Shown here: positions 24,022 through 36,681 of the stretch, in pieces
Numbering within the stretch: position 1 is the first letter of the stretch
Layout: each line of letters opens with the position of its first letter
From: a bacterium
Lineage (GTDB): Bacteria; UBA10199; 2-02-FULL-44-16; JAAZCA01
Assembly (NCBI GenBank): GCA_021810905.1
Contig: JAJZQH010000008.1
Location: 62,001 to 126,000, forward strand
Direction: 5' to 3'
DNA length: 64,000 nucleotides
Notes under the pieces: model-generated
What the model was told of the DNA's origin: nothing
The model's input: only the letters and a program-made list of their open reading frames with translations
The model's database searches: none
Program-made: the position numbers and the translations under genes

Positions 24022-24453
24022 CTAGATTCTCGCCAGAAGATGCTTTGCAGCATCGAGAAAGCGTTCAGCGGAATTCAGAACAGAGCGCGCGCCGGATTCG
24101 GAAAACTCTCCATGATAATCCGCCTCTTCTCTCAGGATCATGGCGTTGCGCAGGTCGCGCGCCAACTCGGGTAAGAGCCTCTTTTCGTCCACATACAGCG
24201 CCTCGATGGCCACAAGGAGATAATGATGGCTCTTCTCGCGATAGCCAGCATGGTAAAGCAGAGCTCGAGCAGAGTGGAACATGGAATAATACGCAGTGAT
24301 CGTTGCGTATTTGAAACGACCCTTTGCAAGTCGATCGCGCGCCTCGTCCAGGTCTTCTTTGGCTGCACCAAGCTCTCGAGACACGAGCCCCGCTCCCTCC
24401 GGAAATTTGATGAGACGGCGTTTTTCGAGCGCTGTTTTGAACTCACGTTTCAT
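24022..24453 (-). CDS. HEPN-domain protein, putative toxin of a MNT/HEPN pair
   Basis: All-helical protein of 143 residues. ELGAAKEDLDEARDRLAKGR, then ATITAYYSMFHSARALLYHAGY, and the C-terminal ERFLDAAKHLLARI are the HEPN pattern. The classic RNase RxxxxH is not obvious, so activity is uncertain. Its start overlaps the nucleotidyltransferase gene by 11 bp. Paired HEPN and nucleotidyltransferase genes form type VII toxin-antitoxin systems, in which the transferase can inactivate the HEPN RNase by AMPylation. Confidence 0.8.
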   Translation of the reverse strand: MKREFKTALEKRRLIKFPEGAGLVSRELGAAKEDLDEARDRLAKGRFKYATITAYYSMFHSARALLYHAGYREKSHHYLLVAIEALYVDEKRLLPELARDLRNAMILREEADYHGEFSESGARSVLNSAERFLDAAKHLLARI

Positions 24454-25006
24454 GGGTCTCCCAGAGCACGATGCCGCGGGCTACCTGTTCCGCAAAGACG
24501 CGATTTTCAGATTCCAGCACTGCCCACTCGTGTGGGGTGTGAATGACCGGTTGAATTCTCTCATTTTTCATCTTCGCGATCTTCTTCTCGATCTCTTCTT
24601 TCCCGCGCGTGAGAATCAGGATATCGACATCGCTCTCTTCCGTGTCTTCGCCAGTCGCTATTGATCCGTAGAGTACGATCTTCTCTGCGCCTTTCTTCAG
24701 TTCATCGATGACCGGTGAGAGGCCCACGATATTCCTGAGCACCTTGAGCTGTCGCACCACTGGATTATCCCTCTCCAGCGAATAGAAGTGCAGCTTCCCC
24801 TTGGCTTCCCTGGTCAGAAATCCAACGCGATGCAGGTCTCTCAGCGCGAAGTTCGCGCCCGCCTTGCTGAGCCGCGCTGCCTTTGCGACCTCTCCTCCAT
24901 AGAGCCTAGCAGAGGGGTTCTTGAGAAAAAGCCGCAATACCTTCATAAAACTGGTGGCAAAGAGCAGCTTATCGACCCGGGTAGATTTATCTAATATATT
25001 AGCCAT
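24443..25006 (-). CDS. wHTH-nucleotidyltransferase fusion, putative antitoxin
   Basis: Protein of 187 residues in two parts. Residues about 15-80 form a winged helix (RLYGGEVAKAARLSKAGANFALRDLHRVGFL). Residues about 100-150 are a minimal nucleotidyltransferase with KIVLYGSIATGEDTEESDVD, holding the GS and DxD catalytic signature. The fused wHTH suggests that it represses its own promoter, in line with two identical palindromes at its start codon. First gene of a two-gene unit with the HEPN protein. Confidence 0.85.
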   Translation of the reverse strand: MANILDKSTRVDKLLFATSFMKVLRLFLKNPSARLYGGEVAKAARLSKAGANFALRDLHRVGFLTREAKGKLHFYSLERDNPVVRQLKVLRNIVGLSPVIDELKKGAEKIVLYGSIATGEDTEESDVDILILTRGKEEIEKKIAKMKNERIQPVIHTPHEWAVLESENRVFAEQVARGIVLWETHET

Positions 25007-26126: not shown

Positions 26127-26424
26127 AGGAATTGTCCGGAAGGTACGCTGTCATAAGGCTTTGAAAGAGCTTGCCGTGATTGGAAATCCGCAGGTGCAAA
26201 AGTTCATGCACGATCACGTAGTCCTGAAACGCGCGAGATTCACGAACTAGATTTTCACTGAAGCTAACCCATTTCCCCGGCGAACAGGAGGCCCACTTGT
26301 TGCACATCCTTTGCACGCGGATCTGCGCGGGCTGCACGCGCAGCCTGGCAGCCCAATCCTTGACCACGCACTTGAAGGAGTCCTTCTGACGCGCCGTCGG
26401 CGACGCTTTTCTTCGCGCCTTCAT
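26107..26424 (-). CDS. YgjP/SprT-like metallopeptidase (DUF45-type)
   Basis: Small protein of 105 residues with the zinc motif VIVHELLHLRISNHGKLF (HExxH, third His eight residues on). The NKWASCSPGKWVSFSENL segment before it is the typical YgjP/WLM signature. Its start overlaps the hsdR stop by 4 bp, so it is the last gene of the restriction operon. Such genes often accompany type I systems, with unknown function. It is shorter than free-standing YgjP proteins, lacking about 100 N-terminal residues. Confidence 0.85.
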   Translation of the reverse strand: MKARRKASPTARQKDSFKCVVKDWAARLRVQPAQIRVQRMCNKWASCSPGKWVSFSENLVRESRAFQDYVIVHELLHLRISNHGKLFQSLMTAYLPDNSFSQCNP

Positions 26425-29330
26425 CTCGCCTCCGAGCGAAGTAACCGCTCCGCGACGCGAAACATGCCTTCCTTCCCGACGAGCGGCAACAAGACCTTAT
26501 AGAGCTCCGCCTTGAGCTGCCGCGACTCCTCCGCATTCTCCCGGCTGTACGGAAAGCGATCGAAGACGGCCCTGACGATGCCCGCGACCTTCTCCGGCTG
26601 CGCGACCCCCTCCAGTTTGAGTTCCCAATAAAAAGAAAAGGCATCGCCCAGACCCATCTCATCCTGTTCCTTTTGCGCCTGAACGATTTCACGGACAAGT
26701 TCTTCGATTCTCCGCAACGCCTCTTCGGTCGTGGACTGTCGCTCATCATAGGCCTCGATGATCGCTTCAGCGCGATCGCCGATTTCTTTGAGATAGGGGT
26801 TGGCATCCTTCCCCTCTTCGACCGCCCTTCGCACGCTATTGACGAGGTTGATCACCTTGATCTTCCCCGAGCCACCTCGTTTCTTCATAGTTTCCAGCGT
26901 ATGTTCATCGATGGAGACGACCGGAAGCGTCGCCTCGAGCCCGTAACTTTCGGCCCTCTCCTTCACGAGCGAAGCAGTCTTTCGCGTCATCTCGCCATAG
27001 AAGGGAGTCTTCTTCCTGAAGGCATTCTGGATAATGCGGTAGAGCACCGACAGACTCCCGAAGTCCTCCACATAGTCGCGCAGTTCGGGAGACGGCGAGA
27101 GGATCTCGTAGAGCATCTCGAGCTGTTTATAGATCTTGAAGAAGGCCTTTCGTTTTTCCTGATCGGCAAAAAACTCGATGGCCCGCTCGATCGCTTTGTC
27201 ATCGAGGCGCCCCCTGCATAGCTCCACGTATTCCCGTGCCGGCCCCTGCATCAGCTCCCGAAATTGCCTGAACAGGAGGTCGAGGTCCTCGATCACGCCG
27301 CTCACCACGTCCGAATCAAACGCAAGCGCCTTTTCGAGCTTCTCGAAGATGCCGACGAAATCGACCACCAGGCCGCAGGGCTTCTGCGTCATCCCGTCCC
27401 GTTCATAGGGACGGTTCACGCGGGCGATGGCCTGGAGCAAAACGTGATCCCGCATCGGCTTGTCGAGGTACATGCAATAGAGGATCGGCGCATCGAACCC
27501 GGTGAGGAGCTTGTCGGTGACGATGAAGATCTTGGGAAGCGCATCCGGCTTTGGGAAGAGCTTGCGCGCCTTCTTCTCATCCTCCGGTGAAATCTGGTGG
27601 CGATGAACGACAGGATACCTCTGGCTGTCGTGCTGCGCTGCCGTGTAGATCGGCATCGACCACTCCGGAGGCATGAGTTTGTCGAGGGCTTCCTTGTAGA
27701 GAGCGCACGCCTCGCGATCTACAGCGACCAGAAAAGCCTTGTACCCCATGGGTTCAACGTTTTCGACGAAGTGTTTCGCGACAAATGCCGCCACCTTTGC
27801 GATGCGATCATCGGCTTTCAAAAAGGTCTTGAGCCGCATCGCGCGATCGAGGATCCGGTTCAGGTCGTCGATGTCGCTGATGCCTTCTGCCTCCGCAAGC
27901 CCCAGGAATTCCTCTTCCAACTGTTTCCGCGGCACGCGTATCTCACTTGGGGCCAGCGTATATTTGAGTGGCTTGGTCGTCCCGTCAGCGATCGATTCCG
28001 CGATCGAATACTTGTCGAGATAGCCCTTATCGTCCTCTTTGCCGAAGACCTTGAACGTACCCTTTCCGTAAGCGGTCCGGTCGATAGGCGTGCCGGTGAA
28101 GCCGATCAGCGTGGCCTTCGGAAGCGCGCCCATGAGATAGTTGCCCAGATCGCCGCCGGTCGTGCGGTGGGCCTCGTCCACGAGGACAAAGATGTTCTCC
28201 CGCTCGTTGATGCCCTTGGGAATCCCGTCGAACTTGTGGATCATGGAGACGATGAGCCCGCGGAAATCCGAGGCGAGCAGCTCGCGGAGCTTTTTCTTGC
28301 TCGTCGCGTACTCGATGCTGATGTCGTGCGCGGAGATCTCGCCCAGGATGCGCTCCACCCAGCCGGCGAGCTGGCCCTCGAGTTCGTTGCGGTCGATCAT
28401 GAGGATGACCGTGGGTTTTCCGAACGCCTCCCGCTCCGCAAGGATCAATCGCGCGGCCGTGATCATGGTGAAGGTCTTGCCCGAGCCCTGCGTGTGCCAG
28501 ATGAGCCCCGTCCTCCTGGTCGTATCGGCGCATCGCGCGAGGATGCGTTCCACGCCGCGGGTCTGGTGCTGACGCAGGACGCTCTTTCTCAGCTCGTCAT
28601 CCTTGTAATAGAAGAGGATCCATTCCCGAAGCATCGTGAGGAACCGCTCCTGGTCGAAGAAGCGCTTCACCTTTTGCTCGAAATTGCCAGGCTCCTCATC
28701 CCGCCAGTTGAAGAGGTTCTTGCGCTCGAGGTTCCAGGTGGCCCCGTAGTAAAAGTCGATGAGATGCGTGACGTCGAAGACCTGGGGGGCGGTGAGCATC
28801 TCCGGCGTCTCGGCGTGATACTCCCGTATCTGCGTGAGCCCCTCCTCGATGCCTTCCTCCCTGGCGGCGCTCTTGGTCTCGACGATCGCGACGGGAATGC
28901 CGTTAATCAGGAAGATCACGTCGGCGCGGTTCGTCTCCTGGCCGTTCGTGTACTGCCACTCGTCGGTGACCTGAAAGACATTGCGGTCGATGGCCTCGTA
29001 ATCGATGAGCATGACATTGCGCTGCCGGTTCTCCGAATGGTCATAGATGCCCCGCTCGCCGCGCAGCCAGGCCAGGATCTCGGCATTGCCCTCGATCGAG
29101 TTGCGCATGGCTTCCATGCGTCCCACGATTTCGCCAGCGTTCTCGCCCGTTACGAGCCCCGGGTTGAATTCGATGAGTTTATCCTCGACGACGCGGTAAA
29201 AGAAGAGCCCGCCCTCGCCCCGCCGCAGGGCCACCGCCTCCGCCCGAGGCACGAACTTCCACCCGACCTCCCGCGCATATCGGATGAGGGGTGATTGGAC
29301 GGTGGTGCGTTCTGATGCAATTTTAGGCAT
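26421..29330 (-). CDS. hsdR: Type I restriction enzyme, R (endonuclease/translocase) subunit
   Basis: Motor and nuclease subunit of a type I restriction system, 969 residues. The N-terminal nuclease domain has ADVIFLINGIPVAIVETKS (D...ExK, near residues 138-154). The SF2 helicase core follows: Walker A HTQGSGKTFTM near residue 281, DEAHR, and GFTGTPIDR. Helicase domain 2 has FIVTDKLLTGFDAPIL and AIARVNRPY. The C-terminal helical part is typical of the family. It is separated from hsdS/hsdM by a kinase pair and one plus-strand gene. Confidence 0.96.
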   Translation of the reverse strand: MPKIASERTTVQSPLIRYAREVGWKFVPRAEAVALRRGEGGLFFYRVVEDKLIEFNPGLVTGENAGEIVGRMEAMRNSIEGNAEILAWLRGERGIYDHSENRQRNVMLIDYEAIDRNVFQVTDEWQYTNGQETNRADVIFLINGIPVAIVETKSAAREEGIEEGLTQIREYHAETPEMLTAPQVFDVTHLIDFYYGATWNLERKNLFNWRDEEPGNFEQKVKRFFDQERFLTMLREWILFYYKDDELRKSVLRQHQTRGVERILARCADTTRRTGLIWHTQGSGKTFTMITAARLILAEREAFGKPTVILMIDRNELEGQLAGWVERILGEISAHDISIEYATSKKKLRELLASDFRGLIVSMIHKFDGIPKGINERENIFVLVDEAHRTTGGDLGNYLMGALPKATLIGFTGTPIDRTAYGKGTFKVFGKEDDKGYLDKYSIAESIADGTTKPLKYTLAPSEIRVPRKQLEEEFLGLAEAEGISDIDDLNRILDRAMRLKTFLKADDRIAKVAAFVAKHFVENVEPMGYKAFLVAVDREACALYKEALDKLMPPEWSMPIYTAAQHDSQRYPVVHRHQISPEDEKKARKLFPKPDALPKIFIVTDKLLTGFDAPILYCMYLDKPMRDHVLLQAIARVNRPYERDGMTQKPCGLVVDFVGIFEKLEKALAFDSDVVSGVIEDLDLLFRQFRELMQGPAREYVELCRGRLDDKAIERAIEFFADQEKRKAFFKIYKQLEMLYEILSPSPELRDYVEDFGSLSVLYRIIQNAFRKKTPFYGEMTRKTASLVKERAESYGLEATLPVVSIDEHTLETMKKRGGSGKIKVINLVNSVRRAVEEGKDANPYLKEIGDRAEAIIEAYDERQSTTEEALRRIEELVREIVQAQKEQDEMGLGDAFSFYWELKLEGVAQPEKVAGIVRAVFDRFPYSRENAEESRQLKAELYKVLLPLVGKEGMFRVAERLLRSEAR

Positions 29331-29391
29331 TTTATTTGACCACCTTCGTCAAGAGCATTATTTGTTTCTCCTCATTGCACGCATGTAGTAC

Positions 29392-29407
29392 TATTCACCT
29401 GTGAATA
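29392..29407 (+). promoter_or_regulatory. Palindrome over the start of the nuclease-like gene
   Basis: TATTCAC, CT, GTGAATA: a 16-bp perfect inverted repeat whose right arm contains the GTG start codon. It lies in the 70-bp gap between the divergent hsdR and nuclease-like genes and could be an operator for either. Confidence 0.45.
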
Positions 29408-29997
29408 TCACCCTCGAAATCCCGAAAGTACGATTCTATGAGCCCGAACGGAACCTCCCCGGCCGCAGACTTCGTAGTGTAACTAGCGAGACGCGATTTA
29501 CGATTCAGTTTGCAAGAACGTACCTCTCCAAACACTTACTCATTCACCATGGCACTCATAAAGAAACAGTGGCGTGCGCACGCCAGGTTTCCGTAAATGG
29601 CTATGGCATAGCTGACCTGTTGGTTATCGAGTGGGATGGAACAGAGAATCTGCAATGCACGAATATTGATGACTTCGTTCATGGAGCTAACCTCATAACG
29701 AGAGCATTCGAAATGAAGCTGAAGGATTGGCGAAAAGCGATGATGCAGGCATCGCGTTATCGCTATTTTGCTCATCAACCAATCGTCGTCCTTCCGGCGG
29801 ATATATGTCACAATGCACTCGTGTATATCGAAACATTCCAATCCATCAATGTCGGACTGTGGGGTTATGACGAACTTGAATCGTCGATCATCCGCCATTT
29901 CACACCTCGGCCACGCAAGCCTCTCTCAACCAAACACCATATCCAGGCCATGCGCAAGGTTGCCAAGCTCTCTAAACTAATTCCGCGAGTTTCTTGA
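29401..29997 (+). CDS. Putative PD-(D/E)xK-type nuclease in the restriction locus
   Basis: I do not recognise a named family. The 198-residue protein has YGIADLLVIEW, then TRAFEMKLKDWRKAMMQASRYRYFAHQPIVVLP. An Asp followed about 40 residues later by ExK and a helix with QxxxY is the usual layout of restriction-endonuclease-fold proteins, so nuclease activity is a reasonable inference. It starts with GTG inside a palindrome, has no clear ribosome site, and its end overlaps the convergent gene by 26 bp. Visibly lower GC than neighbours outside the island. Confidence 0.6.
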   Translation: MNITLEIPKVRFYEPERNLPGRRLRSVTSETRFTIQFARTYLSKHLLIHHGTHKETVACARQVSVNGYGIADLLVIEWDGTENLQCTNIDDFVHGANLITRAFEMKLKDWRKAMMQASRYRYFAHQPIVVLPADICHNALVYIETFQSINVGLWGYDELESSIIRHFTPRPRKPLSTKHHIQAMRKVAKLSKLIPRVS

Positions 29998-31165
29998 ATC
30001 TAGCAATGCCATCACGAATAGCATCCAATCTCTCGTACTGTGCCTCGACCCCGCTTGAAAACCCTGCTTCTTCCAGACCGCTCCAAAGCGCGCGCGCTTT
30101 TTCAATTCTCCCAAGGAATGACGCGAGATCCCTTTCAAGATCTCCACTTATTGTCTTATCACACAGATCTTTAATAGCATCCCAGCTTTGAAGCGCCTCT
30201 TCTGTTCTCGTTGTCTCTCCTCCGTAGTATTTATCAGATGCAAGACCGTTAGAAACTCTCCCATCAATTTTTGAGAAATCTTGATGCTCCGTCTGCTTAA
30301 TCCGCGCCAAAAGACCGCAACTGACATACCGAATGAGCGGCGCAGAACCTCCTTGCTTTGATGGCCTCACATACCTCCCCATACTGAATTGCCTAAGATT
30401 CGTAGACCAGCCAGTTGCTCCGGCATATGCACCGCATATTCCTAACAGTGGCGACAGCAGGTCGGAAAACCCATTGACGACCTTAAAACCATTTATTGAT
30501 AAGACATGATTGATATACATCCAGCCTGCTATTACTTTTTCGTCGAAGATGTCGGATCGAATGTGTCGCCCATCTTCATCCACAGTCCCGCTTCCCACAA
30601 GCAGATAAAAGCCGTCGGGGAAAGTTTCGAGAGACGTCAGGGCACCAATGAAATCATTTAACGGCGCCCCGCCAGACACCAGCACGTCCCGATCAAGCGC
30701 CAATGTGGCGAATACCGGCTTATCATTTATCCCAATAGCCTGAGCCACTTTCTTGGCGCTTCCAATGAAATTAAGTGCGATAGCGGCATCGATCGAGTCG
30801 GCGCTGTTCACATAGACATTCGGCGTAATATACCCCATCAATGGGTACGCCCTCTGCGTTTCAATGACTTTCTGTATAACAGGCTTTATTTCCGATCCGT
30901 TTATTAGAGCTGAACGCCGCGGCGCAGTAAAATAATCCCATTCACCCAGTTTTCCGAGCTGAGCATTCGTATTCCCGAAATATTGATACGCATGATAGTG
31001 AGGATCAAACAGGAATGCTCCGGACGGCACTTCATTCAGCTTATCCCCAAATGTATCGGGGCCCCGATAGCGTGAGCTGAGCAACGCGCCATCTATCACC
31101 CCTTTTTCCAAACCCATTTTTATCTTATCGCCGGGTCCAAATCCATCTTGTGCGAGCAGCTTCAT
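29972..31165 (-). CDS. Unknown protein coupled to a Ser/Thr kinase
   Basis: I do not recognise this 397-residue protein. Alternating hydrophobic strands and helices (GAFLFDPHYHAYQYF, MGYITPNVYVNSADSIDAAI, PVFATLALDRDVL, FPDGFYLLVGSG, LGICGAYAGATGWSTNLRQF) suggest a beta/alpha-barrel-like fold; the last 90 residues look helical. No catalytic motif is certain. Its start overlaps the kinase stop as ATGA, so the two are made together and may act as kinase and substrate or partner. Lower GC than the core genes. Located inside a type I restriction locus. Confidence 0.65.
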   Translation of the reverse strand: MKLLAQDGFGPGDKIKMGLEKGVIDGALLSSRYRGPDTFGDKLNEVPSGAFLFDPHYHAYQYFGNTNAQLGKLGEWDYFTAPRRSALINGSEIKPVIQKVIETQRAYPLMGYITPNVYVNSADSIDAAIALNFIGSAKKVAQAIGINDKPVFATLALDRDVLVSGGAPLNDFIGALTSLETFPDGFYLLVGSGTVDEDGRHIRSDIFDEKVIAGWMYINHVLSINGFKVVNGFSDLLSPLLGICGAYAGATGWSTNLRQFSMGRYVRPSKQGGSAPLIRYVSCGLLARIKQTEHQDFSKIDGRVSNGLASDKYYGGETTRTEEALQSWDAIKDLCDKTISGDLERDLASFLGRIEKARALWSGLEEAGFSSGVEAQYERLDAIRDGIARFKKLAELV

Positions 31166-32061
31166 GATTTCACCTCCCTCAAATCATCATTGAGTAGCTT
31201 TAATGTCGCATATCTGAGCGGCGGCTTCTTCCTGATGCATCGATCGATGATCCGGCAGAAATTCTCCGGCAGATCATTTCTGAGTTCTTTCAGCCTTCTT
31301 GGATGATCATGTAATATTCGATACATGGTCGCATATTCATTGCCTGGTTGAGAAGCAAACGGCTGGATACCGGTCGCGAGCTCATATACAGATAGAGCTG
31401 CGGAATAGAGATCGCATCTGAAATCCATTATGTCCTTATAATCCGGTTGTAATAGTTCCGGCGCCATATATACGAGTGTGCCCGGTGGAAGCGGCCCTTG
31501 TGTAAAATTGGTTCCTCGCATCTTGTATGCGATTCCCATGTCCAGAATTACAAATGGCCTGTCACTCAAACCGGTCTCGAAGATATTCGAGGGCTTGATG
31601 TCGCGATGAACATATCCTATCCGGATCATCTCATCTATGACTTCGATGAGAAACCTGAACACTGCCAATAAACGTTGGGGGTTAGGCTTATTCTCCTTGG
31701 AAATCGATGCTGTCAGTTCAGAGCCGGGCAAGAATTCTTCGCTATAAACGATGTACGTACCCGCCGTTACGTTGACGACTCGATTGGTCAGGTTGCCGAG
31801 TTTGACAATAGATGGCGAAGTGCATGAGCCCAACAACTCAATTTCGCGCTTAGCCCTCGCTATCAATTCGTTTCTCAGCTCCTCAGAAATACCGTCCTCG
31901 ATATTCGGTATATAAATAGCTTTGACTGCCTCCGACATATTCTCATGGATAAATCCTTTGAATACTGCCTTAAAACCTCCCCTCGTCACGAATTGAAGGG
32001 AAGTCACCTCACCGCCCAGGGCACTTGTGAGTTCAGCCACATCTGGAATTGGTATGTTCAT
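31162..32061 (-). CDS. Eukaryotic-like Ser/Thr protein kinase in the restriction locus
   Basis: Protein of 299 residues that is a nearly bare kinase domain. Seen in order: a glycine-rich region VTRGGFKAVFKG, AVKAIYIP as VAIK-type Lys, the catalytic loop YVHRDIKPSNIF, the magnesium loop LDMGIAY (DMG instead of DFG), PGTLVYMAPELL, and a conserved CDLYSAALSVYELATG. No transmembrane or sensor domain is present, so it is cytosolic. It lies 58 bp downstream of hsdS and overlaps the next gene by 4 bp. Kinases are known in BREX-, Pgl- and Dnd-linked defence, but this arrangement is not one I recognise. Confidence 0.88.
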   Translation of the reverse strand: MNIPIPDVAELTSALGGEVTSLQFVTRGGFKAVFKGFIHENMSEAVKAIYIPNIEDGISEELRNELIARAKREIELLGSCTSPSIVKLGNLTNRVVNVTAGTYIVYSEEFLPGSELTASISKENKPNPQRLLAVFRFLIEVIDEMIRIGYVHRDIKPSNIFETGLSDRPFVILDMGIAYKMRGTNFTQGPLPPGTLVYMAPELLQPDYKDIMDFRCDLYSAALSVYELATGIQPFASQPGNEYATMYRILHDHPRRLKELRNDLPENFCRIIDRCIRKKPPLRYATLKLLNDDLREVKS

Positions 32062-32119: not shown

Positions 32120-33307
32120 TCATCCCTCCACCTCCCGCACGTCGATGTCGATGTCCGCGACGCGGATGGCGCCGGTCATGAGGTTGTTGAGTGTTGTTTT
32201 GAAGAGGGATTGCAGACAAGCCTTACGCGATTCACAGATAGCCGTATTTTTTTCGGCAATCCGAAGGGAGGCCGCTATTTGAATCTGCTCAGACATACAA
32301 GGCCGTGGGACCTTAAATTCGGATAGCGTAGTGCTGATGATGGTACGAGTTCCATGTGCTGATCGACCTACTTTTTGGAAGAGCAAATGTTTGAACGCTT
32401 GAAGCGCATAAAACAGGAATTCTGGATCGTACTGTTTATTCGGGATTATTGCTTTCATATCTTGATTGAAGGCCATCGGCACTTCTGTCAACGCTATAGG
32501 AACGTCCTTCATGAGGATCATGCCTCGAACGACAATGAATATGGATCTGACCGGTGCCAAGCAGCTTCCGGAGTTGAGAGCTTCTTCAGTAATATGATCT
32601 TTCGCATCTTTAAGTCGTGGCTTTTTCATGTCTTTTGGTGATACCCACGGTACTGTCCCTTTCCAGAATTCAGAGTGAGATTTTCGTGGAGTCCCTCCAC
32701 TTAAGAAAGAACACACGTCTTCCAACCGCACCACATCCCAACTCTCCGGGATTTCGCCAATTTCGGTCATCTTGGTCTTCTCGCCGCGCAGGCCCCGGGT
32801 GAAGAGGTGCTGCATGGTGGACTTCTTGAGGTCGCGGAGCGACTGGATGATCCGCTCCTGCGCCTCGATGGCGCGCTGCAATTTCAAGAGCACCGCCGCG
32901 ATCTTCTTCTGTTCGGAGAGTGGGGGGAGGGGAAAGGAAAGTCGATAAACCCTTTCACGATTCAGCCCGGGAATCGTACTATGCGAATTCATTTGATTCA
33001 AACCGAGCGAAGAAAGCAAATAAGCAACAAACCTCAAATTGTCATTCCGCTTCAGGTTCACGTAATATGTCGTGTCTATGGGCCAAAAATCAGAATCGCA
33101 ATAATGAACCTCACCGCAAGAACCCTTTCTCCCTACAATGATACCAGGCCCCGTTACAGCAAACTCGCTATGGTATCCGACTGTACCGTTCGATCCGTAA
33201 ACGGGATACGAGCCATCTTCACGTGCGCTCTTGGGCAAACTCTTCCCGTATAAAAGTTCAAGAATTTGACTTAAAGAGACTTTGCTCCACCCCTCCTGAA
33301 ACCTCAT
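32120..33307 (-). CDS. hsdS: Type I restriction-modification specificity subunit
   Basis: DNA-recognition subunit, 395 residues. Two target-recognition domains are visible: the first with YGSNGTVGYHSEF and GRKGSCGEVHY, the second with GEIPESWDVVRLEDVCSFLSGGTP. Each is followed by a conserved coiled helix: PPLSEQKKIAAVLLKLQRAI and CMSEQIQIAASLRIAE. The two different halves should recognise a bipartite site. The start overlaps the preceding DUF1016 remnant by 4 bp. The second half looks more A/T-rich, as expected for a domain swapped by recombination. Confidence 0.93.
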   Translation of the reverse strand: MRFQEGWSKVSLSQILELLYGKSLPKSAREDGSYPVYGSNGTVGYHSEFAVTGPGIIVGRKGSCGEVHYCDSDFWPIDTTYYVNLKRNDNLRFVAYLLSSLGLNQMNSHSTIPGLNRERVYRLSFPLPPLSEQKKIAAVLLKLQRAIEAQERIIQSLRDLKKSTMQHLFTRGLRGEKTKMTEIGEIPESWDVVRLEDVCSFLSGGTPRKSHSEFWKGTVPWVSPKDMKKPRLKDAKDHITEEALNSGSCLAPVRSIFIVVRGMILMKDVPIALTEVPMAFNQDMKAIIPNKQYDPEFLFYALQAFKHLLFQKVGRSAHGTRTIISTTLSEFKVPRPCMSEQIQIAASLRIAEKNTAICESRKACLQSLFKTTLNNLMTGAIRVADIDIDVREVEG

Positions 33308-33588
33308 CCCCCACCCCCCTCCAGCATGCCGCTTTCGACTATCTCGCGTTCTATTTCTTCGACCGTCGGGAGACTCGGTTTGAGATCGTCCGTCAGGGCG
33401 CGGGTGAGTTGATATTCAGAGACGCCGATCGGCTTTTTGAGGCCGCGCAACGCGTATTCTGCCACGGGCTGTGGCAGATTTGCGGCCAGTCCCGCACGAA
33501 CGCGCGCCTCCCGGATGCGGGATTTTACCTGCGCCAGGAGTTCGGCGTAATCGGCCTCGCCAAAAATCTTGGAAATATTACGATTCAT
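33304..33588 (-). pseudogene. Internally deleted DUF1016 (YhcG-like) gene remnant
   Basis: Open frame of 94 residues that joins an N-terminal DUF1016-like start (YAELLAQVKSRIREARVRAG) directly to a C-terminal DUF1016-like end (VAEYALRGLKKPIGVSEYQL, LPTVEEIEREI). About 250 middle residues, including the nuclease core, are missing without a break in frame. An intact member of the family lies just upstream. It still has start and stop and overlaps hsdS by 4 bp, so it may be translated and keep translation coupled. Confidence 0.65.
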
Positions 33589-33667
33589 CGGTGTTTCCTC
33601 ACCCGTCAACCGGGATGCCCAATAGCGCCGATGCCGTCGGCACTTTCTGACTCTTCCAGCCAGACCA

Positions 33668-34834
33668 TCATTTCTTTCGCCCTTCCAGCTGCTTTCTCGT
33701 TCGTTTTAATTCTGCAGCGATCAGTTTCTCGTTCGGCAATACCGTACGATACTCGGCGGCAAGCACCTTGTTGGGCAGACCCTCCAATGCGTACTTGGCC
33801 AGGGCCGTGTCCTTTTGAGCACAGAGGATCAGACCTACGGGAGGATTTTCGTCCGGACGCGTCCAATGTTCGCGCGCGTAGTTCAGATACATGTGCATCT
33901 GGCCGGCATCGGCATGCGTGAGCTTGCCGCGCTTGAGGTCGATAACTACCAGGCACCGCAGGCGCCGATGGAAAAAGATCAAATCGACGCGGTACCACTC
34001 GTCGCCGATGCGCAAGCGTTTCTGTCGACCCACAAACGTGAAGTCGCCGCCGAGTTCGAGGAGGAAATGCTCAAGGTGCAGGATAAGGGCTTCCTCCAGG
34101 TCGCCCTCGGAGTATTCATCCTTCAGGCTGAGAAATTCGAGAACGTAGGGGTCCTTGATCTGCTCCTCCGGGGTGACGGCATCCTCTGGCTTCGATTTCG
34201 CGCCCTTGGCCAACATCGCTGCCTTGTTCCTGGACAACACAGTGCGTTCATAGAATTGGGACTCGATCTGCCGGTTGAGCTGTCGCACGGACCAGCCACC
34301 GCGGAGGGCCTCCTCTTCGTAGAACTCTCGGGCCTGTTTGCTCTTGAGTGAGAAGAGCCGAACATAGGCGGACCAAGGCAGGGGAAATCGCCGGGCTAGT
34401 TCAATCAGGCCCGGTTCCATCGGCGATTTTTGCAATTCACGGGATGATGTCTCGGATTTTCCAGACACCGTCTGGAATTTCTGTGATGGCGATTCTCCAG
34501 ACGGCGTCTGGAAAATATCACAATAGGTCAGGAAGAAGCTCCTCATCTGATAGAGATTGCTCTTGGCAAAACCACGCCCAAATTCGGCAGTCAAATCAAT
34601 GGAAAGCTGCACGACGAGGGCCTCGCCGTATCCTGCCCGTTTGCGGCCGGCCTGCTCGTTTTCGACGATCCTGCGGCCGACCTCCCAGTAGGTGGCGGTC
34701 ATAATCGCATTGACGGTGCGGGCAGAGGTCCGCCTCGCTTCCTCGATAAGGGACATCATGCCTGACAGCAGCCCGTCATACCCGCGCATGCTCACAGGTC
34801 CTGCGCCCTTTCGCTTCGCAAGTTTTACCGTCAT
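33668..34834 (-). CDS. DUF1016 (YhcG-like) PDDEXK nuclease-domain protein
   Basis: Protein of 388 residues common in type I loci. The N-terminal DUF1016 helical domain (about 20-200) holds ARTVNAIMTATYWEVGRRIVE. The C-terminal nuclease domain has RVDLIFFHRRLRCLVVIDLKRG, with Asp and Asp-x-Lys as the restriction-fold site. The ATG at 34834 follows GGAGG. A variable insert near residues 108-140 contains two FQT-S-GK-like repeats encoded by two small palindromes (see findings). Exact role in the restriction system is unknown. Confidence 0.88.
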   Translation of the reverse strand: MTVKLAKRKGAGPVSMRGYDGLLSGMMSLIEEARRTSARTVNAIMTATYWEVGRRIVENEQAGRKRAGYGEALVVQLSIDLTAEFGRGFAKSNLYQMRSFFLTYCDIFQTPSGESPSQKFQTVSGKSETSSRELQKSPMEPGLIELARRFPLPWSAYVRLFSLKSKQAREFYEEEALRGGWSVRQLNRQIESQFYERTVLSRNKAAMLAKGAKSKPEDAVTPEEQIKDPYVLEFLSLKDEYSEGDLEEALILHLEHFLLELGGDFTFVGRQKRLRIGDEWYRVDLIFFHRRLRCLVVIDLKRGKLTHADAGQMHMYLNYAREHWTRPDENPPVGLILCAQKDTALAKYALEGLPNKVLAAEYRTVLPNEKLIAAELKRTRKQLEGRKK

Positions 34835-34869
34835 CAACAGCCTCCGATCTACTTGCGATTCAACCCGGT

Positions 34870-36681
34870 CTACCTGAATCCCATCTGCGCGAAGATTTTT
34901 CCCAAATCGGCGTCGATTTTGGCCGCGTCCTTCTCAAGCCCTGCGAGTTCCTTCAGGATATCCGGTATCGGCCGGTAGTCCTCCTTCTCGCTCGTATCGA
35001 CATAACGCGAGGGCGAGAGGTTGTAGTCGTTTTTAGCGGTCTCTTTCGTAGCGATGACCCTCACGAAGCGCGGAACGTCCTCCCCCTTGATGAAGGCCTG
35101 CGCGATCTTTCCGATGCCCTCTTCGGGGATGTAGTTCTTGGGACGGCCTTTCTTGAACTCCTGGCCCGCGTTCACCAGCACGATCTTCCCCTGGCGCTTT
35201 GGCAGCTTGTGTTTGTTGATGAGGACGATGATCCCGGCGGCGGTGGTGTTGTAGAAGAGGTTGTCAGGGAGGAGGACCACGCCCTCGATCAGGTCGTGAT
35301 CGACGAACCACTTGCGGATCGTCTTCTCCTTGTCCTCGTTGCGGCTGCCGCTGCCGCGCGTAACAGCGCCGGTGTCGAGGACGACCGCGGCCCTGCCGTG
35401 TGGCTTGAGGGAGGCGACGGTGTGCTGAAGCCATGCCCAGTCGGCCTTGCCCGAGGTGATGCCGCCGCGTTCCTCGAAGCGGCCGAACTCGTCCTTCTCG
35501 TACACGGACGCGTCGAAGGGCTGGTTCCACATCGGGTTCGCGACGACGATGTCGAAGCCGCGCAGGCGTCCGTTGCCCCCCCGGAATTTCGGGTTGGTCA
35601 TGGAGTTGCCGCGCACGATCTCGCCCTCCATGTCGTGGATGACCATGTTCATGCGGGCGATGGCATAGCTCGACCCGGTGAGCTCCTGGCCGTAGAGCTT
35701 GAGCGGACGGGTGACCTTGAGCTCGCGCTCCATGAGCGTGAGCTCGCACTTGATGAGGAGCCCGGCGGAGCCGCAGGCATAATCGTAGACCTCTTCGCCC
35801 TGGGCGGGACGCAGCATGTGCGCCATAACCCAGCCCACCTCCGTGGGGGTGAAGAACTCGCCGGCGCTCTGCCCCTGTCCCTCGGCGAATTTGCGCAACA
35901 GGTATTCGTAGCACCGCCCCAGGAAGTCCGGCTCGACGTCGTAGAGTCCCAGGCGATAGCGGCGGTCGGAGAGAGTTTCGATGATGCCCGCGAGGGCGGC
36001 ATCGCTGATCTCGCGCTCGCCGTTGCGCGTCTCATTGAAATCGACGATGTCGATGACGCCGCTTAAGTCCTTTCTGCGATCTCCGGCATTGGCCTTGACG
36101 ATGGTGCGCATGGTAGTGGTGAGTTGCTCGCCAAGCGATTTTGGATTCTGCCCTTTTGGCCAGTCGAACGATTCGCGACCGCTTACCACGCCCCAGCGCG
36201 CCTCGGGAGGGAGATAGAAGCGGACGAGGGTCGGGTCAGCCTCGATGATGGAGAGGGCGGTATCTTTATCGCCATAAGTTTCAGACAGACGCTCTACTTC
36301 GTCGTCAAAGACATCGGAGAGACGTTTGATGAAGACGAGCGGCAGGATGTAGTCTTTAAACTTCGGGGCGTCCTTCTCTCCACGGATGGAACAAGCCGCG
36401 CTCCACAGCATCTGCTCCATGGATTTCGAGGCCAGCATATCTTCCCTGGCAGCGCGTTTGCGCTTGCGACCATTTCGGGGAGCAGAGCCCTCATCGGATT
36501 CCACTTCCATCATAAGTTCATCAATCGCTTTTTTCGCTTTCCCGCGGGGTTCGATCCTGCCATTCTCCCAACGATTCAGGGTCGAGAAGGCCACACCAAG
36601 TCGCGCAGCCAGCTCCTCCTGGCTCAAGTTCAGCCTCGATCTAAGCTGTTTCAGTATTTCAGGAATCTCTCTGTTTTCCAT
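34870..36681 (-). CDS. hsdM: HsdM methyltransferase fused to an N-terminal XRE-type HTH
   Basis: Adenine methyltransferase subunit, 603 residues. Residues 1-60 are a helix-turn-helix of the XRE type (LRSRLNLSQEELAARLGVAFSTLNRWE). The HsdM helical N-domain follows from about 85. SAM motif I is VYDYACGSAGLLIKCE and the catalytic motif is VVANPMWNQPFD (NPMW in place of NPPF/Y). The fused HTH is unusual and points to self-control, with a matching palindrome just upstream. First gene of the operon on this strand. Confidence 0.93.
   Translation of the reverse strand: MENREIPEILKQLRSRLNLSQEELAARLGVAFSTLNRWENGRIEPRGKAKKAIDELMMEVESDEGSAPRNGRKRKRAAREDMLASKSMEQMLWSAACSIRGEKDAPKFKDYILPLVFIKRLSDVFDDEVERLSETYGDKDTALSIIEADPTLVRFYLPPEARWGVVSGRESFDWPKGQNPKSLGEQLTTTMRTIVKANAGDRRKDLSGVIDIVDFNETRNGEREISDAALAGIIETLSDRRYRLGLYDVEPDFLGRCYEYLLRKFAEGQGQSAGEFFTPTEVGWVMAHMLRPAQGEEVYDYACGSAGLLIKCELTLMERELKVTRPLKLYGQELTGSSYAIARMNMVIHDMEGEIVRGNSMTNPKFRGGNGRLRGFDIVVANPMWNQPFDASVYEKDEFGRFEERGGITSGKADWAWLQHTVASLKPHGRAAVVLDTGAVTRGSGSRNEDKEKTIRKWFVDHDLIEGVVLLPDNLFYNTTAAGIIVLINKHKLPKRQGKIVLVNAGQEFKKGRPKNYIPEEGIGKIAQAFIKGEDVPRFVRVIATKETAKNDYNLSPSRYVDTSEKEDYRPIPDILKELAGLEKDAAKIDADLGKIFAQMGFR

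Follow-up and report, generated by a model that had tools for sequence, protein, structure and literature searches.

A recurring three-gene module of a Ser/Thr protein kinase, a predicted TIM-barrel protein and a PD-(D/E)XK-type nuclease candidate in a type I restriction locus

A bare, cytosolic Ser/Thr protein kinase and a partner protein that resembles no named family lie inside a type I restriction-modification (R-M) locus of a bacterial genome (assembly GCA_021810905.1), which raises the question of whether they belong to the restriction enzyme or form a system of their own. The locus was studied within a 64,000-nucleotide stretch of contig JAJZQH010000008.1 (positions 62,001 to 126,000), referred to here as the window and used for all coordinates below. 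A first-pass annotation of this DNA had placed the two genes between hsdS and hsdR, with the kinase overlapping a 397-residue protein of no assignable family by 4 bp, and had proposed that the pair is an undescribed defence module that controls or supplements the HsdRMS enzyme. Both the position and the overlap are as it described (the two genes have bases 31162-31165 in common), and the module is a genuine recurring unit that is often found in DNA-modification defence loci, but it comprises three genes rather than two. The genes of the locus are as follows:

26421-29330, minus strand: hsdR, type I restriction subunit of the host locus (TIGR00348, 6.9e-131; PADLOC REase_I)
29401-29997, plus strand: small PD-(D/E)XK-type nuclease candidate, 198 aa (motif residues, AlphaFold2, Foldseek)
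29972-31165, minus strand: kinase-linked partner, a predicted TIM-barrel protein of a new family, 397 aa (AlphaFold2, homologue alignment)
31162-32061, minus strand: bare cytosolic Ser/Thr protein kinase, 299 aa (Pfam PF00069, 3.1e-27)
32120-33307, minus strand: hsdS, specificity subunit (Pfam Methylase_S, 4.8e-41)
33668-34837, minus strand: DUF1016/YhcG PDDEXK protein within the hsd locus (Pfam; PADLOC PDC-S02)
34870-36681, minus strand: hsdM, methyltransferase with an N-terminal HTH_3 domain (N6_Mtase, 2.4e-86; HsdM_N, 6.3e-21; HTH_3, 4e-11)

The nuclease-candidate gene is located between the partner and hsdR and runs tail-to-tail with the partner, overlapping its 3' end by 26 bp. The surrounding type I locus looks intact. 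Over ~29.2-33.4 kb, a stretch that includes hsdS, the G+C content is 47-51%, compared with ~57-64% for most of hsdR and hsdM, and this fits horizontal arrival. No mobile-element ends or notable repeats were found around the module, and its region held no match to a sigma-70-type promoter, a consensus that says little for this organism. The hsdR and nuclease-candidate genes are divergent and ~70 bp apart (29330-29401), and therefore may have a common control region. Elsewhere in the host locus, a 101-aa open reading frame (33304-33609, minus strand) fuses the start and end of a DUF1016/YhcG protein and is apparently a deletion remnant beside the full-length copy, while the HTH_3 domain at the HsdM N-terminus suggests a self-regulating methyltransferase subunit. 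A 187-aa Polbeta-type nucleotidyltransferase encoded near the hsd genes (24443-25006, minus strand) is possibly an MNT-like antitoxin.

The third gene came to light when a tblastn search with the partner gave a distant match on a Natribaculum breve plasmid. In this haloarchaeon, the partner homologue is found downstream of a kinase and of a small protein with an 'E.KL..W..A..QA' motif. The window counterpart of this small protein is encoded at 29401-29997, on the strand opposite to the partner, and the trio is present again on the Polaromonas plasmid pPNAP03, where the small gene is unannotated. Profile searches over whole genomes, together with a scan of GTDB contigs, yielded a set of 15 complete loci with close homologues, one of them the window locus, from Verrucomicrobiota, Myxococcota, Betaproteobacteria, a haloarchaeon and others, as well as a sixteenth, partial locus (L032) whose contig ends inside the partner gene. 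Kinase, partner and nuclease candidate stand side by side at all 15 complete loci, a joint recurrence far beyond chance. The small gene may be upstream (L002, L003, L009, L010, L020, and L025), downstream in the same orientation (L008, L021, and L031) or downstream and convergent (the window, L023, L024, L027, L028, and L030), which shows that the genes stay linked without a single fixed order. Distance matrices computed for the three proteins over the 15 loci are correlated (0.87, 0.72, and 0.74), a result that common inheritance alone, rather than interaction, could give. The module is rare, with partner-family matches in 4/385 and 4/400 sampled genomes, one of the latter being a locus of the Xre-RES type described below. 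Single-sequence and small-alignment scans with the partner over genome contigs, viral contigs, and phage records gave no match. The pair is not confined to this genome, and none of the partner homologues found lies in a metabolic operon. Two further genes were observed at individual loci: a 207-aa open reading frame of unassigned family between barrel and nuclease (L031:10226-10849), and, after the Polaromonas module, a gene with a weak match (1.5e-4) to CARF-PDDEXK effectors (L003:13378-14526).

The kinase contains the HRDIKPSN and DMG motifs that had been read in it from the outset. Residues K47, HRD 152-154, K156, N159, D174 and G176 (of DMG 174-176), and P201-E202 are invariant at 15/15 loci and supply the VAIK-type Lys, HRDxKxxN, DxG, and (A)PE elements of Hanks-type Ser/Thr kinases, so that the protein looks active by its sequence. 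Its best PADLOC model is that of the kinase defence gene PD-T4-6 (3.7e-36), a match that reflects the kinase domain and not the system, because unrelated kinase models (mad6, PglW, and others) score as well. PD-T4-6 is a one-gene system, and membership was rejected since at every locus examined the kinase comes with another two conserved genes. The MADS system (MAD1-8) is similar in that its loci also bring together genes for a kinase, a methyltransferase, and a specificity-type protein, and weak mad6, mad5, and mad2 matches were obtained; however, these fall far under the NCBIfam cut-offs (MAD6 47.6 vs. 460; MAD2 52.6 vs. 720), and neither the partner nor the nuclease candidate matches any MAD model. 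BREX/Pgl type 2 was also rejected, as the kinase has 299 aa compared to ~1400 aa for PglW-type kinases and scores 38.7 bits against the PglW model, whose cut-off is 990.

The small protein can be described as PD-(D/E)XK-like with moderate confidence, based on its motif residues and predicted structure. Residues E104, K106, Q116, and A117 are invariant in 15/15 homologues, each of which also has an upstream Asp (D72 in the window) in a preceding strand segment, giving the D...ExK motif and QA helix. An AlphaFold2 model (pLDDT 74) has the element order alpha-beta-beta-beta-alpha-beta of the PD-(D/E)XK core. Foldseek matched it to SPO1766 (probability 0.97) and AF2093 (0.93), weakly in that both E-values are above 1e-2, and the lowest E-value, 7e-3, belongs to UvrC, a different fold. 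Approximately half of the homologues carry, as judged by eye, an additional and possibly winged-helix stretch between the Asp and ExK.

The partner represents a family without a name in the databases searched: Pfam, PADLOC, and PHROGs give no match, and any matches in NCBIfam and the PDB sequences stay at noise level, in agreement with the first-pass annotation's failure to assign it. Modeled by AlphaFold2 with six relatives (pLDDT 79.9, pTM 0.85), it is predicted to be a TIM barrel of eight beta/alpha units followed by a helical C-terminal part (~291-397). Residues D54, L70, P115, Y187, L222, and G252 are invariant over the 15 loci, and conserved columns cluster at the C-terminal strand ends, a clustering matched by ~1.5% of shifted controls. 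The C-terminal strand ends are the usual site of TIM-barrel pockets. D54, at the end of strand 3, and P115, at the end of strand 4, are further invariant in 26/26 barrels of the three cassette types considered here.

The nearest solved folds are tRNA-guanine transglycosylases (TGTs). Archaeosine TGT ranks first in Foldseek against the PDB, the best superpositions are TGTs (1iq8, 4hvx, 2ash, and 6ygw; TM ~0.5), and queuine tRNA-ribosyltransferases stand near the top of a viral library. Together with the conservation on the pocket side of the barrel, this would suit a TGT/DpdA-sort enzyme that exchanges or removes a nucleic-acid base, with the kinase and nuclease regulating it or acting on the altered nucleic acid. 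Such an enzyme nevertheless seems unlikely. The Foldseek E-values are modest (~1e-3 to 1e-2), comparison of the partner profile with 14 TGTs by hhalign gave probabilities of 0.1% or less, and PF01702 has no match in the window partner; the likeness is therefore one of fold only. TGT chemistry uses two Asp, whereas D54 is the sole invariant acidic residue over the partner homologues, and the CxCxxC...H zinc site is absent from the partner sequence. The genes that surround the barrels are, moreover, toxin-like and R-M genes, not queuosine or preQ0 genes.

Distant homologues of the barrel occur in two further cassettes, neither of which contains a kinase. The type 2 cassette, known from three loci, one of them truncated, consists of Panacea/SocA-like, membrane-protein, and PD-(D/E)XK-like genes followed by the barrel, the Panacea-like Pfam match being under its cut-off; its genes overlap or nearly so (L063:5387-8215, on the Arthrobacter AK-1 plasmid pSI-1; L059:1088-3958; L061:1-2396), and the L059 copy adjoins a TdeIII-type restriction enzyme and methyltransferase. 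In the type 3 cassette the barrel (~390-445 aa, annotated as hypothetical only) stands immediately before genes for an Xre-type antitoxin and a RES NAD+ phosphorylase at 8/8 loci (L022:3642-5869, and L064-L070 on plasmids of Gordonia, Roseivivax, Nitratireductor, Chelativorans, Rhizobium, and Mesorhizobium), the seven plasmid loci spanning Actinomycetota and Alphaproteobacteria. Profile-profile comparison against the 15 close barrels gave a probability of 98.3% for the type 3 barrels (E 1.9e-14, 368 columns) and of 95% for those of type 2 (E 4e-8, 247 columns), compared with 0.2% or less for four negative controls (reversed profile, TGT, kinases, and nucleases), which supports homology of all three groups at the sequence level. 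Two weak barrel matches (L060 and L062) were rejected as spurious, and L058 contains only a fragment of a barrel where its contig ends. The arrangement of barrel, Xre, and RES genes is likely to be a three-gene RES system, in which the barrel homologue is the gene immediately upstream of a known toxin-antitoxin pair; the window locus, by contrast, has neither a RES nor an Xre antitoxin gene. No description of the kinase-barrel-nuclease cassette or of a three-gene RES-Xre system was found in the open-access literature searched, an absence that is weak evidence because that literature takes in few subscription papers or preprints.

These cassettes bear on what the partner does. It had been suggested that the partner could be either the substrate of the kinase or the effector; because its distant homologues accompany other toxin sets and lack a kinase, the kinase is the replaceable part, and this points to a sensor or switch role for the partner rather than that of a mere kinase substrate. 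The barrel is also the only component common to all three arrangements, the remainder being toxin-like. The reading preferred here, to which we assign a probability of roughly 45%, is thus that the barrel may act as a sensor or switch for exchangeable toxic effectors, and that the kinase and nuclease may serve as a second line behind restriction.

The neighbours of the module argue against its being part of the HsdRMS enzyme. Among the loci examined, type I hsd genes adjoin it at the window and L030 only. The nearest relative of the window module, L027 (47% identity), has as neighbours the end of a type IIG methyltransferase and an HKD-Snf2 protein. DrmD, DrmMI, and a DruE-like helicase are encoded next to the module at L023, an MmeI/Eco57I-like enzyme at L002, and a type IIG enzyme at the partial locus L032; a DNA methylase is found ~7 kb from the module at L009, terminase- and portal-like genes, identified by reading the sequence, adjoin it at L010, and the other loci show no firm defence neighbour. 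A firm R-M neighbour is absent at 9/15 loci in the DNA examined, and the restriction link is therefore not obligatory. Mapped onto the partner tree, linkage to R-M genes has changed three times or more. As other kinds of R-M system, or none, adjoin the module elsewhere, an obligate type I accessory was rejected, and the differing neighbours and changing linkage mark the module as a guest of modification-based defence loci rather than an HsdRMS subunit.

The same neighbourhoods weigh on two explanations modeled on described systems. CapK and CapS are a DNA-damage-activated kinase-substrate pair often sandwiched among R-M and other immune operons, and in VapKSC a nuclease is under kinase control (PMC13373217). 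By analogy, the module could regulate its host defence locus, with the nuclease-like protein as a DNA-binding regulator, a role that its placement inside the hsd locus and the possible winged-helix insert would suit. This is quite unlikely, as most loci offer no firm R-M neighbour to regulate and an invariant ExK..Q would be needless in a mere DNA binder. The resemblance, moreover, lies in a kinase and partner linked to immune operons, whereas CapK/CapS and VapKSC combine an anti-sigma-factor-like kinase with a STAS partner, and the window module a Hanks-type kinase with a predicted TIM barrel and a PD-(D/E)XK-like protein. A second analogy is with PrrC, a guest effector genetically linked to the type Ic R-M system EcoprrI that provides a second line of defence (PMC2610378). 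A dedicated guard of this kind would be silenced by HsdRMS and released when a phage protein inhibits restriction, and the precedent gains some force from the location between hsdS and hsdR and from the repetition of the order hsdS-kinase-partner-nuclease at L030. It is decidedly unlikely for this module, which has no homology to PrrC and occurs with several unrelated R-M kinds and alone; the varied surroundings at L027, L023, and other loci mean that no single R-M enzyme is a constant partner. Finally, a plain toxin-antitoxin or plasmid-stabilizing cassette without a phage-defence role is very improbable, since the module has settled repeatedly in R-M and DISARM-type loci on chromosomes, even with members on plasmids (L002, L003, and L063-L070) and a known toxin-antitoxin pair within type 3.

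The sensor-and-effector reading builds on the linkage of the three genes, the conservation of active sites, and the swapping of gene partners, all of which are observed directly, and on the fold of the barrel, which is predicted. We infer the sensing, the order of activation, the targets, and an anti-phage role along the following lines. Kinase, TIM barrel, and PD-(D/E)XK protein would move together as a three-gene unit, for which DNA-modification defence loci are a frequent host. The strand-end pocket of the barrel, with its invariant Asp and Pro, may bind a nucleotide, a nucleic-acid end, or a similar signal that reports infection or damage from restriction, upon which the barrel would free the two effectors of the window branch. 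The kinase may then phosphorylate a target in the host, the barrel, or the nuclease, and, during active restriction or after its failure, the effectors would halt growth or degrade nucleic acid. In the other branches, the barrel would instead be wired to a membrane-protein set or to the NAD-consuming RES toxin. By analogy, a module of this design would find its closest functional parallels in PrrC (PMC2610378) and other second-line effectors and in immune modules under kinase control, VapKSC among them (PMC13373217), though the barrel could also be an enzyme instead of a sensor.

More broadly, and more tentatively, the TIM-barrel family may serve as a trigger common to conflict systems of bacteria and archaea, joined to at least three unrelated effector sets (kinase and nuclease; Panacea-like protein, membrane protein, and nuclease; and the Xre-RES NAD-consuming toxin), and would then represent a new class of modular immunity. 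If so, this unnamed family would offer a way into toxin and defence systems of several genes, one example being a so far overlooked third gene of RES-Xre toxin-antitoxin loci on ordinary plasmids, and it would become testable how second-line effectors couple to various restriction systems without specificity for any of them.
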